In this document: piece by piece, positions 34,887-57,743 of the stretch | Layout: each line of letters starts with the position of its first letter | Position numbering within the stretch: the stretch's first letter is position 1 | Assembly: GCA_028825445.1 (NCBI GenBank) | Contig: JAPKAD010000001.1 | Location: 186,001-250,000, forward strand | Direction of reading: 5' to 3' | Length of the DNA stretch: 64,000 nt | Origin: Octadecabacter sp. | Lineage (GTDB): Bacteria > Pseudomonadota > Alphaproteobacteria > Rhodobacterales > Rhodobacteraceae | Notes under the pieces: generated by a model | Database searches by the model: none | The model's input: the letters and a program-made list of their open reading frames with translations, nothing else | What the model was told of the DNA's origin: nothing | Position numbers and translations under genes: made by a program

Positions 34887-36794
34887 TCAGGGTTTGACGT
34901 ATGGTTTGGGCTTGGGGCTGTCGCTGCCGCGGGTTGCTTTGCGTTCTGCCTCATCCAAAGTTTCGGTCAGTGCAATTTCAAGATCGCGGTCTGCAGCTTT
35001 GGAGCGTTCGATGTAGGCCGTGTTTTTAGAGATTGGGATGTTTGGGTTCCACACTTCTGCCAGATCGCGCAACATGGCGCGGTCGTGGTGGTAGAAAGAC
35101 ATCTCTGCTTCAGAAGCTTCGTATTCTGAGAGGCCAAGGTTTTCGAGAACGTAACGTCCTGCACGCAGTGAACTGTCGAACAATTCGCGCACGATGTCAT
35201 TTGCACCTGCTGCATAAAGTTCATAGACATGTACACGATCCCGTGCCCGTGCAACAATGTGAATATCGGGGCGGTGGCTGCGAGCATATTTGACGAGGTT
35301 TACGGCAGAGTCTTTGTTATCTAATGCCACCACCAGCACAGTCGCGTCATCCAATCCGGCTGCGTGCAGAATGTCGGGTCGAGTTGGGTCGCCAAAGAAA
35401 CCTTTAAATCCGAATGTTCGCATTAATTGCACAGTTTTAAGATTATTATCAAGAACCACAGTGCTGAAACCACTGGACTGCACAAGGCGGTTGACTACCT
35501 GCCCAAACCGGCCAATTCCTGCGATTATAACTGTTCCTTTTTCATCAATTTCGTCCTCTGGATGGTCTGTGGTTTCGATGTTCATACGGTGTGACACCAC
35601 ATCATAGGCAATAAATAATAGTGGTGTAATCATCATCGATAATGCTACCACCAGCAACAAATCTGCGCCCAAGGTTGGGCCTAGGACGTCTTGTTGTAGC
35701 GAGAACGAAATCAAAACAAAGCCAAATTCACCAGCTTGCGCGAGGCCAAGAGTGAACAGCCATCGTGCACGGCCACGGATGTCGAACACTCTGGCCAGAA
35801 AATAAAGAACGCAGCCTTTGGTCACCATCACCGCGATTGTCAAGCCAACAATACGCATTGGTTTGGTGAACAGTACGTCAAAGTCGATGCCTGCACCCAC
35901 AGTGATAAAAAATAATCCGAGTAAAAGGCCTTTAAACGGCGCAAGGTCACTTTCAAGCTCATGGCGGAATTCCGAGTTTGCAAGAACCACGCCCGCAAGA
36001 AATGTTCCGAGGGCCGCGGATAGTCCGACGAGGCCCATCAACGTGGCGATGGAGACGACAATCAGTAGGGCTAAGGCGGTATACATTTCCCTCAGACGCG
36101 CGTGGTGTATGTATCTAAAGATTGGCTTAGTCAGGAATACACCAACCAAGATAACCATTATGACAGCGCTGATAGTAACAAGGGTCACACCCCATCCGGG
36201 CAGGCCGTCAACGAGGCTAAGGGAGCTGTCGGTGGAGCCTTCAACTGGGCTATGAGATATCGATCCGTCCAGTTGCACACGTACGGGTGCTAGCAGTGCC
36301 AGCAGGGGAAGTATTGCTAACATCGGGATCACCGCTATGTCTTGGGTGAGCAGCACCGAGAAGGTGTTGCGTCCGCCGTTGGTCTGCATCAGGCCCTTTT
36401 CAGATAGTGTTTGCAGCACGATAGCGGTTGAGGACAGCGCAAATATCATACCAATCGCAAGGGCGGTTTGCCAAGGTTGGCCCATCCACATGAACAGGAA
36501 AGTGATCAGAAGCGTAGTCAAGGTGATTTGTAAGCCTCCAAGTCCGATCAATCGGTGGCGCATCCCCCACAAGGCGCGGGGTTCCATTTCAAGTCCAATT
36601 AGAAAAAGCATCATCACGACGCCAAATTCAGCAATATGCTGTAATTCGGCTGCTTCCGCGCCAATCAGTGGCCCAATTGCGACACCTGCAAGCAAATACC
36701 CCAACACGGACCCAAGACCGAGGCGTGCAGCTAAAGGAACCGCAATAACAGCCGCGCCGAGGAGGATCGTGGCGAGAAGAAGGGTTTGTTCCAT
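34887..36794 (-). CDS. CPA2-family monovalent cation:proton antiporter (KefB/KefC-like)
   Basis: A 635-residue inner-membrane transporter. The N-terminal Na+/H+ exchanger domain has about 12 helices (LATILLGAAVIAVPLAARLGLGSVLGYLLAG; LTQDIAVIPMLAILP; LGTFLAGVVLANSEFRHE). From about residue 415 there is a cytoplasmic TrkA-N/RCK domain (VIIAGIGRFGQVVNRLV, then GFKGFFGDPTRPDILHAAG). This is the KefB/KefC architecture, which mediates K+/H+ exchange gated by glutathione adducts or nucleotides. It converges on cobT with no space, stop to stop. Confidence 0.92.
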   Translation of the reverse strand: MEQTLLLATILLGAAVIAVPLAARLGLGSVLGYLLAGVAIGPLIGAEAAELQHIAEFGVVMMLFLIGLEMEPRALWGMRHRLIGLGGLQITLTTLLITFLFMWMGQPWQTALAIGMIFALSSTAIVLQTLSEKGLMQTNGGRNTFSVLLTQDIAVIPMLAILPLLALLAPVRVQLDGSISHSPVEGSTDSSLSLVDGLPGWGVTLVTISAVIMVILVGVFLTKPIFRYIHHARLREMYTALALLIVVSIATLMGLVGLSAALGTFLAGVVLANSEFRHELESDLAPFKGLLLGLFFITVGAGIDFDVLFTKPMRIVGLTIAVMVTKGCVLYFLARVFDIRGRARWLFTLGLAQAGEFGFVLISFSLQQDVLGPTLGADLLLVVALSMMITPLLFIAYDVVSHRMNIETTDHPEDEIDEKGTVIIAGIGRFGQVVNRLVQSSGFSTVVLDNNLKTVQLMRTFGFKGFFGDPTRPDILHAAGLDDATVLVVALDNKDSAVNLVKYARSHRPDIHIVARARDRVHVYELYAAGANDIVRELFDSSLRAGRYVLENLGLSEYEASEAEMSFYHHDRAMLRDLAEVWNPNIPISKNTAYIERSKAADRDLEIALTETLDEAERKATRGSDSPKPKPYVKP

Positions 36795-36845: not shown

Positions 36846-39800
36846 TTAGCCAATAACGCGCAGGGTAATTGCGCGTCCGCGCTTGGTGTAATTAAGAGCG
36901 GTCGCGCTGATTGCGGTCACACGGCCCCCGTCAAGGTGATCCCCAACGGTTACGCGCACGTAACGCCCATTGTTCATCCGTAACAGTGCACGTCGATCAC
37001 CGGATCCACCGTAGATGCCTATCAAGTTCATCTCTTCAAGATTGATGGTGTTATGGAGTGTTGCAGCTTGTGCAACTGACCCAGCTGTTGGCCTACTTGG
37101 GGAAACTGTTTGCAGGGCAACTGTAGTTGCTGCAATATGTTTAGCGGCGTTTTCACGTGCATCGATTGCGCGTAATACGATGCGTGCCATATTGCGGGGG
37201 CGTAGATCGGGCCGGCTACTTATTTTAACTGCTTGTGTGGTTGCATTAACAATTGGGTTTGGAAGGCTGGTTGTGGTGAGCACTGAAGTGGCGAATTTAC
37301 GTGAAGTTCGTAAACCTGTTACCGCTGGTTGTGCTACGCTCACATCTAAAATGGGTTTTCGTTCTGCAAGACGTGTGCGTGGGCGAAAGGCTGAGGCTTG
37401 CGCGTCGTTCAACACGCCAAGGACAGTAATATTTTCTGTAACGGCTTGTGCTGCGGAAATTTCTGCTGCGTCTTTAATAACGGCGCTAGGACGGGGCAAA
37501 GGGCGGGGTGTGTCAGAAGTGGGGACCTGTGCTATAAAGGTTGGCACAGCAGAGATACTTTGTTTGAGGTTTTCAGTATCAATTCGTGGCGGACCGGTTC
37601 CTTGACGGTCAGGTCGGAACAATGGGAGCGACCCGGCAATATTATTTACGCTCCTGGGAGAGGTGTTTGGAACACCCATTTCAGGTGCGACGACCACTGA
37701 TGGTGTAATCGTTTTGGGTCGCACAGGTGGCAAGATAGGAGGTGATCCAGTAAGTACCAGCAGATCATCAGTGGCCAGCAGAGTGAGAGCGCTTGACGCC
37801 AGTGCAGACTCTTTTGGCGTGAAGAAGGTTGGGAGTGTTCTTGAGCGGATGGGTGGTGTGATTGTGGGGCGACCGACGATTAAGATCACGCCTACTGGGG
37901 AATCATTTATGGGATTTGCGTCTTGCGAGATGACGCCAGAAAGTTGATGTTGTGTTGTAATTTCAATCGCCAAAGTGCGGGGTCGCTTTGGAGGATTGAG
38001 TGGTGGTCGTCCGGCAATGACCAGAATACCGTCTGGTGTTAGCGCGCCCTGCGTGGTTGCTAAAACCAAACCATCAGCGTTGTAGTCAAAACTTTGGCTT
38101 GGCGGTGGGGGGAGGGTTGGAGTGGCGATTAGGGTGTCACGCGTAGCATTGATGTACGGTTTGAGTGGGCTGGACTGAATCAAATGCACAGGGTGCGACA
38201 AGACACTGTGTGTAATGGTATTAAGCTTTGTTGTGCGAGGAATTTGGGGTATGCGAGGAGCCCTTTGCCAAACGCCAATGGCGGCATACAGGCGAGCTGC
38301 TTCTTGTGGTGTCAGGATCTGTTCCCCAGTCGCTAGGCTATGAGCAACATTCTTAGGTAAAAGGTTCGTTGTGTTTCGTGTTGCAACCAGTTGTTTGTAA
38401 TAGGCAGTTTGTGGTGCTGCCGCCTCCAACGCCGAAGTTGGGGTGGGGTCATATGCTATTTGAGTTGCTGATGTTTTCAAACCGAACCAGCTGGCGAAGT
38501 TTTCCTCAGACAGCGCAGCGACCGCGGCCATTGTGAGGAGGAACAGCAGTAGTACGGCAGTCAGGACGAGCCCCAGAAAGCGTGGTTTACCACCAATGGC
38601 AGCTTTGGGTTTATTTTTTGCTTCTTTGCGTGCACTAAAAAAAGTTAGTTTAGATTTTTTGTTTTTAGTGCTGTAGCGGATATCCGTGGTGTCTGATCGT
38701 GCATTTATTTTGGTGGCGTTGGTTTTTGCATCATTCATGGCTACGCGGCGGCTGGCGAACATGCTGCTGAATGCACCTCCAACGGTTGATGCTGCACCGA
38801 ATGCAGTAGCCCCTGAACTGCGCTTTTTGTTTAGTTTTGCGCTTTGGCCATGATCATTGTCATAAGTATGACCAGGGGGTTCTATGGACTCAATATTTAA
38901 GGATGCCGCAGCGATGGCTGCATCGGGCAACAGGTTCGTTGGTGCATTACCAGTTAAGATGAAACCAACGTCACTGTTGGGCTTTTTAATTGTAATTAGC
39001 GGGGCGACAGCGCCCTTATCTGCAGTGCGATTGGGGGCCGAAAGCGAGGGCATCCGCTTGGTGCGTTTGCCTATTGGAACAAATAAATTTGGTGAAGTTG
39101 AAGTTTGTGGTGTTTGGTGGTTAAGCGTTAGTCTTGCGGGAACGATTGAACGCTTGTTGGCTTGGCGCTTGATTATTTGTGTGGGTGCAGGGCGCTCTTC
39201 GTTACGATCAGCGCGCAGTCGGGATGAGAACATCTGTGCAGCTGTGTCGTTCGCGTCCGTTGCCTCGGGTGTCAGTTTTATGTTGTTAGACGTCAGTCCT
39301 GCTCCGTTGTCTTGCATCATCCGCTGATGAGGGAAGTACTTGTCTAATGCGTCAATGTTAGCTTCGTCAAAGATAAGCGTGTCGAGCTTCAGTGTCGCAG
39401 TAAATTTATTTTCATCCGGTGTTAGTGTTAGATCGATGTCAGGCTCACTGGGGATAAAGGCATCTATGATAGTAGTTTGAGTATCAAATCCAACATCTGG
39501 CACAGGGCGTAGTTCTAGCTTGATATTAGCTTCAGGCAGTCCGTAACCGATAGCGATTTCGTTTGGCTTAATAGGAATATCAGGCTCTGCAACACTTTGC
39601 GTGGCTTCTCCGGTTATGATCACAGAATCTGTGTCGCGTTCGACAAACAACCCGTCTACGCTACCAAAAAATGCCTCTCCAACATAGGTGAATGGTTCGG
39701 GAACTGCAGCAAAACTGATAGGATCAAATCCATGTTCAGTAGAAAATTGTTTTGCTTCGGTCAGGGTTTTTTTAGCGACAGCAGCCACGTAAGTACGCCC

Positions 39801-40115
39801 TCCGCCTCTAACGTAATCGTAGACTAAATCGTCAACGTCATAGGGGGTGGCCTCATGCAACGCTTTTCGGACGTCATCTTCTTCAGCGCGGGTAGTATCC
39901 AATGCAAGGTACTTTATTTGATCATTTGGAATTAACAATTTAGTTAAAATTCCGCTTGGTTCAAGAATTTTAGCCATGACGCGCAAACGATCTAGCTCAC
40001 CCGTCAGATCAGCGTCATCCAGTGCAACCTGACCCACCAAATGCCATCCATCGGAGACGCGATGCATTAGGCGCAGTCCTTCAAAGGACAGTGATAAAGC
40101 GAAATTCGACTTCAT
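36846..40115 (-). CDS. Giant PilM-like/PilP-like envelope protein with Pro-rich repeats (roseobacter 'translation initiation factor 2' type)
   Basis: A 1089-residue protein. Residues 1-150 resemble the actin-like N-terminus of PilM/GspL (FALSLSFEGLRLMHRV; ATPYDVDDLVYDYV; AKKTLTEAKQF). Residues 150-510 are a long hydrophilic linker. One membrane helix lies at about 511-535 (FLGLVLTAVLLLFLLTMAAVAA). The periplasmic part is Pro/Thr-rich with three or four imperfect repeats of the type L-V-I-x-G-x-P-P-I-x-P-P-x-R-P-x-T (about 697-715, 743-762, 786-805 and a weaker copy near 825). The C-terminus (about 1025-1089: NLIGIYGGSGDRRALLRMNNGRYVRVTVGD) looks like a PilP/GspC homology region. It is likely an inner-membrane assembly platform protein bridging cytoplasm and periplasm. 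Databases often give such proteins the wrong name translation initiation factor 2. No pilus genes are adjacent. Confidence 0.75.
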   Translation of the reverse strand: MKSNFALSLSFEGLRLMHRVSDGWHLVGQVALDDADLTGELDRLRVMAKILEPSGILTKLLIPNDQIKYLALDTTRAEEDDVRKALHEATPYDVDDLVYDYVRGGGRTYVAAVAKKTLTEAKQFSTEHGFDPISFAAVPEPFTYVGEAFFGSVDGLFVERDTDSVIITGEATQSVAEPDIPIKPNEIAIGYGLPEANIKLELRPVPDVGFDTQTTIIDAFIPSEPDIDLTLTPDENKFTATLKLDTLIFDEANIDALDKYFPHQRMMQDNGAGLTSNNIKLTPEATDANDTAAQMFSSRLRADRNEERPAPTQIIKRQANKRSIVPARLTLNHQTPQTSTSPNLFVPIGKRTKRMPSLSAPNRTADKGAVAPLITIKKPNSDVGFILTGNAPTNLLPDAAIAAASLNIESIEPPGHTYDNDHGQSAKLNKKRSSGATAFGAASTVGGAFSSMFASRRVAMNDAKTNATKINARSDTTDIRYSTKNKKSKLTFFSARKEAKNKPKAAIGGKPRFLGLVLTAVLLLFLLTMAAVAALSEENFASWFGLKTSATQIAYDPTPTSALEAAAPQTAYYKQLVATRNTTNLLPKNVAHSLATGEQILTPQEAARLYAAIGVWQRAPRIPQIPRTTKLNTITHSVLSHPVHLIQSSPLKPYINATRDTLIATPTLPPPPSQSFDYNADGLVLATTQGALTPDGILVIAGRPPLNPPKRPRTLAIEITTQHQLSGVISQDANPINDSPVGVILIVGRPTITPPIRSRTLPTFFTPKESALASSALTLLATDDLLVLTGSPPILPPVRPKTITPSVVVAPEMGVPNTSPRSVNNIAGSLPLFRPDRQGTGPPRIDTENLKQSISAVPTFIAQVPTSDTPRPLPRPSAVIKDAAEISAAQAVTENITVLGVLNDAQASAFRPRTRLAERKPILDVSVAQPAVTGLRTSRKFATSVLTTTSLPNPIVNATTQAVKISSRPDLRPRNMARIVLRAIDARENAAKHIAATTVALQTVSPSRPTAGSVAQAATLHNTINLEEMNLIGIYGGSGDRRALLRMNNGRYVRVTVGDHLDGGRVTAISATALNYTKRGRAITLRVIG

Positions 40116-40990
40116 GATCTTGACCTAGCATCCTGCATTAGGACTGAAAACTCCCCTTTTTACTAATAACTTAAAAGTACAGCAAGCTTTCGCTCACGCC
40201 AAGTGAGACTTTTAATTTTTAAATACTTCTAAGGCTGGAAGGATAGTCTTTCGAGGTATTTTAAAAAATTAGTAGTAAGATGCCATAATTTTCATGTGTA
40301 TTATTGTTCGATCTTTATTAACCACCTCTGTGCTTTAAGTGCCTTTTGTCGTTCTAGGCTGCAACATCATGGTTACTGGCCAAAGATAAGTCAGCGTAGG
40401 GCCGGACATGGGAACGGTGGTAATCAGGGTGCTGGATCAGGCATAAATTTTGACAATGCATTGGTCTCAGCCAATACGTCTAAATCGACTTTTTCAACGA
40501 CTGTGGACAGCGAAGGCCTTGCAATTTGCAATGGTGCTATCTGGCTGAACCCGTACTATTTACAAAATGTTTAAAGTATAGTGACTTAAACCTCTGTCAA
40601 TTAAGCTGTTAATGAAGTGTAATCAAAAATAACAGGCTAGGCGCACTTGGGTAGAACTTTGGCCACTGTGGACGAGTGTGGTTCGAGCTGACTGGAAGTT
40701 TTACTATACACTTACGTGGCTACTGAAGTAGCTCGTTATCTTATTATTTTAAACATGCTTGGCTTGTAAAGCTTCATGCAGATCCAGCAGGTGTTTTTTT
40801 AGATGAAATGGTGATGCTGAATGAAGCTGGTAGCGGTCGCTAACTCACGTTGGGATTGTTACCCTCCCCGCAATATAAAGTCTAAGTTGCAGTTGGAAAA
40901 ATAAAAATTATCGCGTCATTTATGCTCTTCTTTAATATATTTAATTGGAACAGGGCGCGGCGATGTGCGACGCCCCATTCTGTATAATAA
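40116..40990. other. Gene-poor stretch of 875 bp
   Basis: The plus ORF 40296-40574 has no recognised content. Around 40715-40835, plus-strand pieces such as VATEVARYLIILNMLGL and LHADPAGVFLDEMVMLNEAG read like coding sequence broken by a stop and frameshift, so a small dead gene may lie here. The promoter of the leftward 1089-residue protein gene would be at the left end. Confidence 0.35.
40953..40975 (-). terminator. GC-rich hairpin just after metY
   Basis: GGGCG and CGCCC flank a GC-rich loop, about 15 bp past the metY stop on the minus strand. The T-tract after it is weak, so this is a possible terminator only. Confidence 0.4.
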
Positions 40991-42283
40991 TTAAGCAGTC
41001 GCTTTTGCGAGCGCCTGATCCAAGTCTGCGATCAAATCTGTTGCATCCTCAAGCCCGATGGACACACGCACAACACCGGGGCCAGACCCTGCTGCTTTTT
41101 GCTGATCTGCCGACAATTGGCGGTGGGTTGTTGATGCAGGATGAATGATCAAAGAGCGGGTGTCGCCAAGGTTTGCCACGTGACTGAAGATTTCCAGCGC
41201 ATCGACTAGTTTAATGCAAGCTTCGTAACCGCCCTTCACAGCGAAAGTAAACAACGCGGAAGCGCCGCGTGGACAGACGTCTTTGATGCGGTAAAAATAG
41301 GGCGAAGACTTGAGGCCTGCATAGGTCACGTAGTCAACGCGTTTGTCAGCCTCCAACCAGTTAGCCAACTTGGTAGCATTTTCAACATGGCGATCCATGC
41401 GAAGCGACAGGGTTTCAATTCCCATCAAAGTATAGTGCGCCGCTTGCGGGTTCATCGTCATGCCAAGGTCGCGCAGACCTATAGCGATGCCGTGGAACGT
41501 GTAGGCGAGGGGGCCAAACGTTTCAGCGAACTTAAGACCATGATAGGCTGGTTCTGGCTGAGATAGGCTTGGAAATTTGTCAGACGCAGTCCAATCAAAC
41601 TTGCCGCTATCTACGACACAACCGCCAGTCACAGTTCCATTTCCAGTGAGATATTTGGTTGTGGAATGAACGACCAGCGTCGCCCCATGTTCAATTGGGC
41701 GGCATAAGTATGGTGTGGCCGTGGTGTTGTCGATGATCAGTGGGATGCCAGCGGCGTCAGCAATATCAGCAACTGCACGCACGTCCATGATGTGACCTCC
41801 GGGGTTAGCAATAGCCTCTCCAAAAATTGCGCGTGTGTTGTCGTCAATTGCAGCAGTGACAGCTGCTGTGTCATCAATATCGACGAATTTGGCTTCCCAG
41901 CCAAACCGCTTGATAGTTTGGCTGAACTGGGTGACCGAACCACCATAAAGGCGGGTGGACACTACTATGTTCATTCCTGGAGACATGATCGGAAATAACG
42001 CCATCAATTGCGCGGCGTGACCAGACGAACAACAGACTGCACCTGCTCCGCCTTCAAGTGTGGCTATGCGTTCTTGCAGCACGGCAACGGTTGGATTGGT
42101 CAGACGAGAATAAATATAACCAACTTCTTGCAAGTTAAATAGGGCTGCGGCGTGGTCTGAATTGCGAAAGACATAGGCAGTAGTTTGGTAGATCGGAGTG
42201 TTGCGTGCGCCTGTAGCGGGATCAGGCCGAGCGCCTGCGTGAATTTGCAAGGTATCAAAGCCGTAGGATGAGGTATCGGTCAT
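40991..42283 (-). CDS. metY: O-acetylhomoserine sulfhydrylase (PLP-dependent)
   Basis: A 430-residue cytoplasmic Cys/Met-metabolism PLP enzyme making homocysteine (or methionine) from O-acetylhomoserine and sulfide (or methanethiol). The N-terminus TLQIHAGARPDPATGARNTPIYQTTAYVF is typical of MetY. The PLP lysine is in VVHSTTKYLTGNGTVTGG. The length, 430, fits MetY rather than the shorter MetB/MetC/MetZ. The start has TTGGAGAAG upstream. I looked for a SAM riboswitch in the leader and saw none. Confidence 0.93.
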   Translation of the reverse strand: MTDTSSYGFDTLQIHAGARPDPATGARNTPIYQTTAYVFRNSDHAAALFNLQEVGYIYSRLTNPTVAVLQERIATLEGGAGAVCCSSGHAAQLMALFPIMSPGMNIVVSTRLYGGSVTQFSQTIKRFGWEAKFVDIDDTAAVTAAIDDNTRAIFGEAIANPGGHIMDVRAVADIADAAGIPLIIDNTTATPYLCRPIEHGATLVVHSTTKYLTGNGTVTGGCVVDSGKFDWTASDKFPSLSQPEPAYHGLKFAETFGPLAYTFHGIAIGLRDLGMTMNPQAAHYTLMGIETLSLRMDRHVENATKLANWLEADKRVDYVTYAGLKSSPYFYRIKDVCPRGASALFTFAVKGGYEACIKLVDALEIFSHVANLGDTRSLIIHPASTTHRQLSADQQKAAGSGPGVVRVSIGLEDATDLIADLDQALAKATA

Positions 42284-42834: not shown

Positions 42835-43863
42835 TTAACGTATCCAGAAGCCTTCTTTTTTGATCTGATTGCGGATTTGGCGTTCGCTTGGAGGCATGTC
42901 GTTTTGATCAAACAATGCACGCACTTTTTCGCCGCGTCCTTGGTAGATCATGAGTTTAAATGGATCATACTGTTTGAGCCATTTCTTAATATTATTGGGG
43001 GCTGTGACTGTGTTTAGCACTGATATAACTGCGTCGGTTTCGCGTGCGTAAAGCAGTGGCAACATACGGTAGTGACAGGTTAGAGTACCGTCCAATCCGG
43101 CAAGATCAATGCCTGGGCGTCCACCCCCAAAACTGTGAATGACCAATGGTAATGTTACTTGGTCAAGCCACGGGTTCAGAGATTGCAATATCAGCTCTTC
43201 TGGACGGTTGTCACGCACCTCAAGCGCCCAGTCTCTCCAACGCGAACCGAACGTTGGTGCATCGTGCCCCGTAATCCAGCCTGCGTTAAAATACAGATAA
43301 CGTTGCCAATATTCGTCTGGCTGATCTGTATCAAGCGTGCTGTCGAAGTCCAGCCCATAGCGGTCATAAAGTGATTTCCAAATGACGCTGTAACCTGGCC
43401 AGTACAGCTCTTCTTTGGGCCATGTACCTGTGCGCCGCATTGAAGCGCTTGGTCGTGAAAAAACGGTGGACAGCGATGCAATATCGCCAACTATCAAGGT
43501 ATCGGTGTCTAAAAATAGGAAATTGCGGCCAGCGGGCATGGCGCAGAGCGCTTCGATCTTGTTGCCGTAAGGGTATTTTGCGCCAAATGCCTTGTTGACG
43601 AAAGGCAAGATCACCGCTCCAAGGGATTCTAGCGCGCCTTTAATATCAAAAGGCATTGTTGGATCTTTTGGCCACAATAGACCAGCTTGCGGTTCAGCGA
43701 CGAAAAGCGTGCCTGCAAACGTCGGTGAGTTGGCCTGAAGAGAAGCCGCTAGCAATATAGCTTCATATTGAAGTCGCCCACTTTGGCCGACGACCATAAT
43801 GTCGAAATCTGATGATGGAATCTGGTTGGTTGCTTGATTGCATGTGGGGATCTGGTCAGACAT
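42835..43863 (-). CDS. Glycosyltransferase-like protein (nucleotide-diphospho-sugar transferase fold)
   Basis: A 342-residue soluble protein without signal peptide. Near residue 120 is FLFLDTDTLIVGDI, a DxD-type metal/nucleotide-sugar motif in the setting seen in family-8-like transferases. Earlier segments (YEAILLAASLQANSP; GAKYPYGNKIEAL) and the later FNAGWITG and VIHSFGGGRPG also fit this fold. Acceptor and donor are unknown. It is leftward, with a partial ORF of unclear status 9 bp upstream. The family assignment rests on the DxD context only. Confidence 0.7.
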   Translation of the reverse strand: MSDQIPTCNQATNQIPSSDFDIMVVGQSGRLQYEAILLAASLQANSPTFAGTLFVAEPQAGLLWPKDPTMPFDIKGALESLGAVILPFVNKAFGAKYPYGNKIEALCAMPAGRNFLFLDTDTLIVGDIASLSTVFSRPSASMRRTGTWPKEELYWPGYSVIWKSLYDRYGLDFDSTLDTDQPDEYWQRYLYFNAGWITGHDAPTFGSRWRDWALEVRDNRPEELILQSLNPWLDQVTLPLVIHSFGGGRPGIDLAGLDGTLTCHYRMLPLLYARETDAVISVLNTVTAPNNIKKWLKQYDPFKLMIYQGRGEKVRALFDQNDMPPSERQIRNQIKKEGFWIR

Positions 43864-50247: not shown

Positions 50248-50333
50248 TGGTGGGCGACCCTGGAATCGAACCAGGCGTGCGTTTCCGCGAGAGAGTTACA
50301 GTCTCCTGCCACACCTTGCGGCCTGACGCCCAC
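50248..50333 (-). tRNA. tRNA-Tyr (GTA)
   Basis: The minus strand folds as a class II tRNA. The acceptor stem is GTGGGCG/CGCCCAC with encoded CCA. The anticodon stem-loop is GGAGA-CTGTAAC-TCTCT, anticodon GTA. A long variable arm follows, and the T-arm is GCCTGGTTCGATTCCAGGG. 86 nt including CCA. Confidence 0.95.
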
Positions 50334-57668: not shown

Positions 57669-57743
57669 TGGAGCGGGCGAAGAGATTCGAACTCTCGACC
57701 CTAACCTTGGCAAGGTTATGCTCTACCCCTGAGCTACGCCCGC
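57669..57743 (-). tRNA. tRNA-Gly (GCC)
   Basis: The minus strand reads GCGGGCGTAGCTCAGGGGTA, an anticodon arm AACCTTGCCAAGGTT with anticodon GCC, a T-arm GAGAGTTCGAATCTC, and closes with CGCCCGC-T-CCA. 75 nt including encoded CCA. A standard cloverleaf. Confidence 0.96.

Follow-up and report, generated by a model that had tools for sequence, protein, structure and literature searches.

A single-pass membrane protein joining a GspL-like and a GspC-like domain is a core protein of the Rhodobacteraceae

Background

In the type II secretion system (T2SS), GspL holds GspE, and the HR domain of GspC holds the N0 domain of the secretin (PMC3169554, PMC10128026). The mitochondrial T2SS keeps D, E, F and G, with L, M and C undetectable (PMC10128026). 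This report concerns a gene that joins a GspL-like and a GspC-like part in one chain, located in a stretch of 64,000 nucleotides from Octadecabacter sp. (assembly GCA_028825445.1, contig JAPKAD010000001.1, positions 186,001 to 250,000; the whole stretch is called the window here). No paper on this protein turned up in literature searches for a PilM-PilP or GspL-GspC fusion in Rhodobacteraceae. The Rhodobacterales signature-protein list of Gupta and Mok (PMC2241609) holds many hypothetical proteins, which could not be matched to it.

Architecture of the fused protein

The open reading frame of the fusion is uninterrupted, begins with ATG and encodes 1089 amino acids (aa). The protein and its parts are:

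36846..40115, minus strand: fused GspL-like/GspC-like (PilM/PilP-like) single-pass membrane protein, 1089 aa (open reading frame and translation; orthologues family-wide)
39606..40115, minus strand: cytoplasmic GspL/PilM-like domain (N-domain), residues 1-170 (AlphaFold2 [AF2], Foldseek, hhalign)
38577..39605, minus strand: variable, disordered cytoplasmic linker, residues 171-513 (alignment occupancy and conservation; pLDDT <50)
38511..38576, minus strand: single transmembrane helix, residues 514-535 (AF2 helix; hydrophobicity)
37971..38315, minus strand: conserved periplasmic element, residues 601-715, YAxTGxWQRAP ... GLVxATPEGAxTPxGxxVxAGRP (alignment, AF2, omega)
37488..37505, minus strand: RPxxRP motif RPLPRP, residues 871-876 (R871, P872, R875 and P876 invariant)
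37368..37385, minus strand: second RPxxR motif RPRTRL, residues 911-916 (P912 and R915 invariant)
37197..37214, minus strand: third RPxxRP motif RPDLRP, residues 968-973 (P969 and R972 invariant)
36849..37085, minus strand: C-terminal GspC/PilP HR-like beta domain (C-domain), residues 1011-1089 (TIGR03021, Foldseek, hhalign)

One single-pass chain carries both a cytodomain of GspL type and an HR domain of GspC/PilP type. These are also the confident regions of the full-length AlphaFold model (residues 1-170 and a beta domain at 1030-1088), with pLDDT below 50 over most of residues 180-510 and 545-972. Among relatives, which are about 400 to 1190 aa long, alignment shows a common N-terminal start (MKxNFALSLS) and a constant order of parts: N-domain, variable cytoplasmic linker, transmembrane helix, the 601-715 element, a variable RPxxRP-bearing spacer and C-domain. 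The otherwise variable linker includes a conserved juxtamembrane stretch of the type MTVFGARK...GGKPRFLG. The one membrane helix of the first-pass annotation is found again at residues 514-535, the sole hydrophobic peak of the protein; the corresponding peak is the strongest in 51/51 relatives. Seven residues of the 601-715 element are invariant in the alignment (Y610, A611, G614, P620, G682, G690 and G696), and pLDDT (AF2) reaches about 80 at residues 671-700 within it.

Identity of the two end domains

The N-domain was modelled by AF2 with a pLDDT of 94.3. Foldseek comparison of this model with the PDB returned GspL or PilM at every rank from 1 to 14 (best hit 5tkw, E 4.5e-8; 4pht, 1yf5 and 1w97 being further GspL structures among the top matches), while FtsA chains ranked next behind them (E 8e-5 to 1e-3). 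Profile comparison by hhalign with GspL of alphaproteobacterial T2SS operons gave 96.8% and E 2.1e-10; the crossed control, the N-domain profile against GspC, gave 0.4%. The N-domain is nearer to GspL than to PilM and corresponds to the whole cytodomain of alphaproteobacterial GspL. The curated Pfam models T2SSL (PF05134) and PilM_2 do not match the window protein or its relatives, and the N-domain profile, searched by sequence against the PDB, found nothing beyond weak, chance-like matches (centromere protein S, E 0.06); GspL would therefore have been missed by sequence alone. The ferredoxin-like PilN/GspL periplasmic domain is absent behind the transmembrane helix (Pfam; AF2 model).

At the other end, the C-domain superposes on GspC 3oss_C (Foldseek TMt 0.80, rmsd 1.6 A) and on PilP 2y4y (TMt 0.69), and its profile aligns with GspC of alphaproteobacterial T2SS operons (hhalign 94.6%, E 7e-8). 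TIGR03021 (PilP) matches the window protein at E 4.8e-7 and 30.8 bits, below the curated cut-off of 34.65, and matches the HR domain of 34/34 relatives; similarity to NF041515 is also present, and the sole Pfam match of the window protein is PilP (E 0.007). The TIGR03021 match makes it likely that proteins of this kind will be given the misleading name 'type IV pilus biogenesis protein PilP', though no pilus need be involved. The first-pass annotation had read the two ends from the sequence as GspL/PilM-like and GspC/PilP-like, and predicted structure and fold matches agree with it at both; the relatives of the fusion are found among T2SS parts no less than among pilus parts.

Distribution and selection

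The fusion was matched in 287 of the 298 sampled genomes of Rhodobacteraceae (254 of 262 good ones); of the 11 apparent lackers, five (genomes G030, G054, G102, G131 and G249) gave divergent or split forms in a profile search. The relatives belong to Rhodobacteraceae in the broad sense, including Octadecabacter, Pseudooctadecabacter, Roseovarius, Sulfitobacter, Marivivens and others. Relatives are also present on large secondary replicons of Pseudorhodobacter turbinis (NZ_CP039965.1 673602-676439) and Paroceanicella profunda (NZ_CP040819.1 495608-496000). Profile searches of 289 and 385 genomes of the class found no fusion outside the family. The N-domain profile matched, among the 289, only the family itself and one GspL inside a T2SS operon, and a wider profile added only further T2SS GspL and near-threshold matches; the out-of-family matches examined (six further genomes and G565) are GspL of T2SS operons, the rest lying near threshold. 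Within this alphaproteobacterial family, the fusion belongs to the core proteins.

Comparison of close relatives gives an omega of about 0.02-0.15 for the N-domain, 0.006-0.2 for the C-domain and about 0.08-0.17 for the 601-715 element, with a looser 0.17-0.54 for the cytoplasmic linker. These values point to strong purifying selection on the fusion and not to decay.

Genomic neighbourhood and independence from known machines

The neighbours of the fusion are metabolic: a glycosyltransferase-like gene, a metZ-like gene, a kefB/C-like gene and cobT. Two of them recur around its relatives:

40991..42283, minus strand: metZ-like O-acetylhomoserine sulfhydrylase, the conserved upstream neighbour, which marks positional orthology
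34887..36794, minus strand: KefB/C-like K+/H+ antiporter, a frequent downstream neighbour of the fusion

metZ is a same-strand neighbour of the fusion in 45 of 50 loci; the fusion lies downstream of it in the window and in G102, G131, G118 and G146. A function read from this neighbourhood was rejected, since metZ, kefB and cobT are metabolic and the G054 locus has other neighbours. The glycosyltransferase-like gene (42835-43863, minus strand) encodes a 342-aa protein with an FLDTDTLIVGD motif and no Pfam match, and is kept upstream of metZ in 43/50 related loci. The 875 bp between metZ and the fusion (40116-40990) hold no conserved open reading frame; several weak promoter-like sites occur there, at a level not above shuffled expectation. 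Elsewhere in the window, a tRNA-Tyr was called by ARAGORN at 50248-50331 (missed by Rfam at gathering score) and a tRNA-Gly lies at 57669-57743.

No pilus or secretion genes flank the fusion in the window. That the gene has no pilus neighbours, as first noted, is true at the locus and extends to the whole genome in several relatives. Absence calls for machine parts depend on Pfam models and genome completeness; on that basis, no PF00263 secretin, PF00437 T2SSE-family ATPase or N-methyl pilin was found in fusion-bearing genomes G045, G118, G056 and G000. G045 is one contig and 100% complete, and G000, the window's own genome, is only 88% complete. The same three parts appear to be absent from G091 and G095 too, but there the fusion matches are weaker. 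N-methyl pilins (PF07963) were absent from 13 of 17 genomes tested, with matches only in T2SS-bearing genomes and G195. Across the family, secretins are present in 91 of 101 genomes, mostly of Tad size (about 480 aa), and the T2SS pseudopilin GspG (T2SSG) in 16 of 101. FliF is absent from the fusion-bearing genomes G055 (one contig, 100% complete), G118 and G056.

As the fusion is kept without secretin, GspE/PilB/CpaF ATPase and N-methyl pilins, it is independent of T2SS and of type IV and Tad pili; as genomes lacking FliF keep it, it does not depend on flagella. It is not tied to the secretin, ATPase and pseudopilins, in genome or locus, that accompany a T2SS member, nor to the N-methyl pilins and PilB/PilT ATPases of type IVa/b pili. 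Its gene lies beside metZ/kefB, outside the tad locus, and persists without secretin, and its presence does not follow that of flagella, as would be expected of a part of an FcpMNO-like flagellar cage.

Split gspL-gspM-gspC operons and origin

Two early-branching genomes, G195 and G054, which match the fusion poorly or not at all, carry an unfused form as three overlapping genes of L, M and C type:

L123 3774-5961 (G054): orphan gspL-gspM-gspC operon, beside a magnesium-transporter-like gene and coxA
L118 3158-5774 (G195): orphan gspL-gspM-gspC operon, near metZ and a SIMPL-like gene

The L-type protein consists of cytodomain, transmembrane segment and PilN domain (E 4.4e-8 in G054, 6e-5 in G195); its T2SSL match is only 0.1, beside a PilN match of 4.4e-8. 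The M-type protein matches T2SSM_b (7.7e-11 and 2.7e-5) and NF040576 (2.6e-15 and 1.6e-13; G054 and G195, respectively). The C-type protein matches T2SSC in G195 (1.7e-4) and TIGR03021 in both. No further T2SS genes lie beside either trio, whose L-M-C order is that of alphaproteobacterial T2SS operons. The G195 trio stands downstream of metZ on the same strand, in the fusion's place, and is therefore its positional orthologue. G054 has, in addition, a complete T2SS at another locus that includes a separate L, M and C (L135 708-11325, gene order L-M-C-E-F-G-I-J-K-(O?)-D); the GspL of that system is too divergent to be detected by the orphan-L profile. In an rpoB tree that includes two outgroups, G195 and G054 group together (98/98) and branch outside a clade (96/96) of 20 genomes, nearly all of which carry the fused form.

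In the proposed origin, a T2SS LMC module would have been left over once E, F, D and the pseudopilins had disappeared or been retained with another copy. M and the periplasmic, PilN-like portion of L would then have been lost from the orphan LMC, and L would have been joined to C. Neither this origin from orphan gspLMC genes nor the core status across the family was foreseen by the first-pass annotation.

Proline-rich repeats

Three clear proline-rich repeats occur in the periplasmic spacer, and a degenerate fourth lies near residue 826, in keeping with the three or four imperfect copies first described:

37968..38012, minus strand: proline-rich repeat 1, GRPPLNPPKRPRTLA, residues 702-716 (core GRPPLNPPKRP)
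37830..37874, minus strand: proline-rich repeat 2, GRPTITPPIRSRTLP, residues 748-762 (core GRPTITPPIRS)
37704..37748, minus strand: proline-rich repeat 3, GSPPILPPVRPKTIT, residues 790-804 (core GSPPILPPVRP)

At least three such repeats arose in one of 5000 shuffles of the periplasmic part. Copy number is 0-1 in 42 of 51 sequences and 3-4 in Octadecabacter-type relatives, the window's own clade. The repeats are a local expansion outside the core features of the family.

Proposed role and alternatives

The fusion is probably an orphaned, fused inner-membrane platform of T2SS ancestry that now acts as an envelope tether with new partners. The GspL-like domain would dock a cytosolic partner, as the counterpart surface in the T2SS holds GspE; because GspE is often absent, that partner would be another protein. 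The transmembrane helix would anchor the chain in the inner membrane. The disordered, proline-rich, RPxxRP-bearing spacer, predicted to be flexible and long enough, would cross the periplasm, and the HR domain would grip a periplasmic or outer-membrane partner much as GspC and PilP take hold of the N0 domain of the secretin. Some genomes lack the classical partners, so new proteins probably fill both places. The fusion would hold, or signal between, the cytoplasm and the outer envelope without a filament, and it is best read as a tether whose two docking domains lie on opposite sides of the inner membrane. A broader claim, held with less assurance and only slightly favoured, is that nearly all Rhodobacteraceae possess in it an undescribed core device of the envelope: a single protein without a filament, derived from the T2SS inner-membrane platform, which connects cytoplasm and outer periplasm and has new partners at either end. 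The minimal envelope-spanning platform suggested in the first-pass annotation fits the predicted anatomy and the evolutionary series, but the proline-rich repeats on which that annotation laid stress are peripheral.

Some observations weigh against this account. The base of the rpoB tree is not resolved, with G102 and G004 (both fused) and G279 also basal, and the L-domain tree has too shallow a signal to prove a single clade of fused and split forms and does not reject one either (p-AU 0.29). That the split form came before the fused one depends on outgroup gene order and synteny. A pseudopilin-like gene stands at the end of the G195 contig; this genome may hold part of a T2SS, which its LMC could serve. 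The HR domain of known systems fits secretin N0, and a secretin is present in about 90% of the family, so the link between the two may be facultative.

In an unlikely alternative, the fusion would serve the Tad pilus as an accessory component at the inner membrane, its HR domain on the Tad secretin and its GspL-like domain on the CpaF ATPase. HR domains bind secretin N0 domains in T2SS and type IV pili (PMC3169554), the family's secretins are mostly Tad-sized and CpaF-like ATPases are present in several genomes; G045, G118 and G056, however, keep the fusion with neither secretin nor T2SSE, and in most loci the gene stands next to metZ/kefB and not among tad genes. Much less probable still is a scaffold of the flagellar motor resembling the PilMNO-like FcpMNO of Campylobacterota. 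PilMNO/PilP parts have been exapted in flagellar motors (PMC11870540) and FliF is encoded in most family genomes tested, but the fusion is kept where FliF is absent (G055, G118, G056), and no such gene is named among the motility genes of Phaeobacter inhibens from a transposon screen that was not saturating (PMC12363192).

Equally improbable is that the fusion serves the T2SS in genomes that have one and is decaying as a relic in the others. Both domains are of T2SS ancestry and T2SSG is found in some of the family, but the two T2SS operons read have L/M/C-like genes of their own (clearly in G054; in G083 judging from their position and a weak match to HR), the fusion persists in genomes without T2SS, and the omega values of the end domains exclude decay. 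A scaffold of the cell envelope or of division, with the actin-like domain working like FtsA or like a partner of MreB and the spacer and HR domain binding peptidoglycan or outer-membrane proteins, is also improbable, at close to the level given to the Tad pilus. The rank of FtsA next after GspL/PilM, the tether-like anatomy and a near-universal retention like that of a housekeeping envelope protein are in its favour; GspL and PilM nevertheless fit the N-domain far better, no division genes lie nearby and there is no evidence of filament formation. This scaffold is compatible with the envelope tether, being a special case of it.

Retention of the fusion in almost all roseobacter-type bacteria, even without the rest of the machine, suggests that its parts have been reused for another job. 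If the tether of T2SS ancestry is true, the forms described here make up a near-complete evolutionary series, from a T2SS with L-M-C through an orphan L-M-C operon to an L-C fusion, and show how part of a large secretion machine comes to be detached and put to new use. One of the commonest marine bacterial groups would then have in the fusion a core envelope protein that is still to be characterised.

Comparison with known systems

With the GspL cytodomain (5tkw, 4pht, 1yf5, 1w97) the fusion shares the fold of residues 1-150, the size and register of alphaproteobacterial GspL and a single transmembrane helix next to it. Unlike GspL, it has no PilN-like periplasmic domain, carries a 340-residue cytoplasmic linker and ends in an HR domain, and GspE is missing from several genomes that encode it. 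With the HR domain of GspC (3oss_C) and with PilP (2y4y, 2lc4) it shares the HR beta fold and the similarity to TIGR03021 and NF041515, but here the HR domain is part of the fusion and not a separate protein or lipoprotein, no PDZ or coiled-coil is present, and several fusion-bearing genomes have no secretin. As for the GspL-GspM-GspC platform, the split form is an L-M-C operon in alphaproteobacterial T2SS order; it differs in having no E, F, D or pseudopilins beside it, and most of the family has lost M and carries L and C as one chain.

The flagellar cage of Campylobacterota, formed by FcpMNO and PflD (PMC11870540), is likewise a case of type IV filament platform parts reused outside any pilus, but there separate PilM/N/O homologues serve the flagellar motor, whereas the present fusion is kept without a flagellum. 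The mitochondrial T2SS (PMC10128026) is, in the same way, a reduced T2SS remnant kept by selection; it is the mirror image of the fusion, in which only L and C remain.

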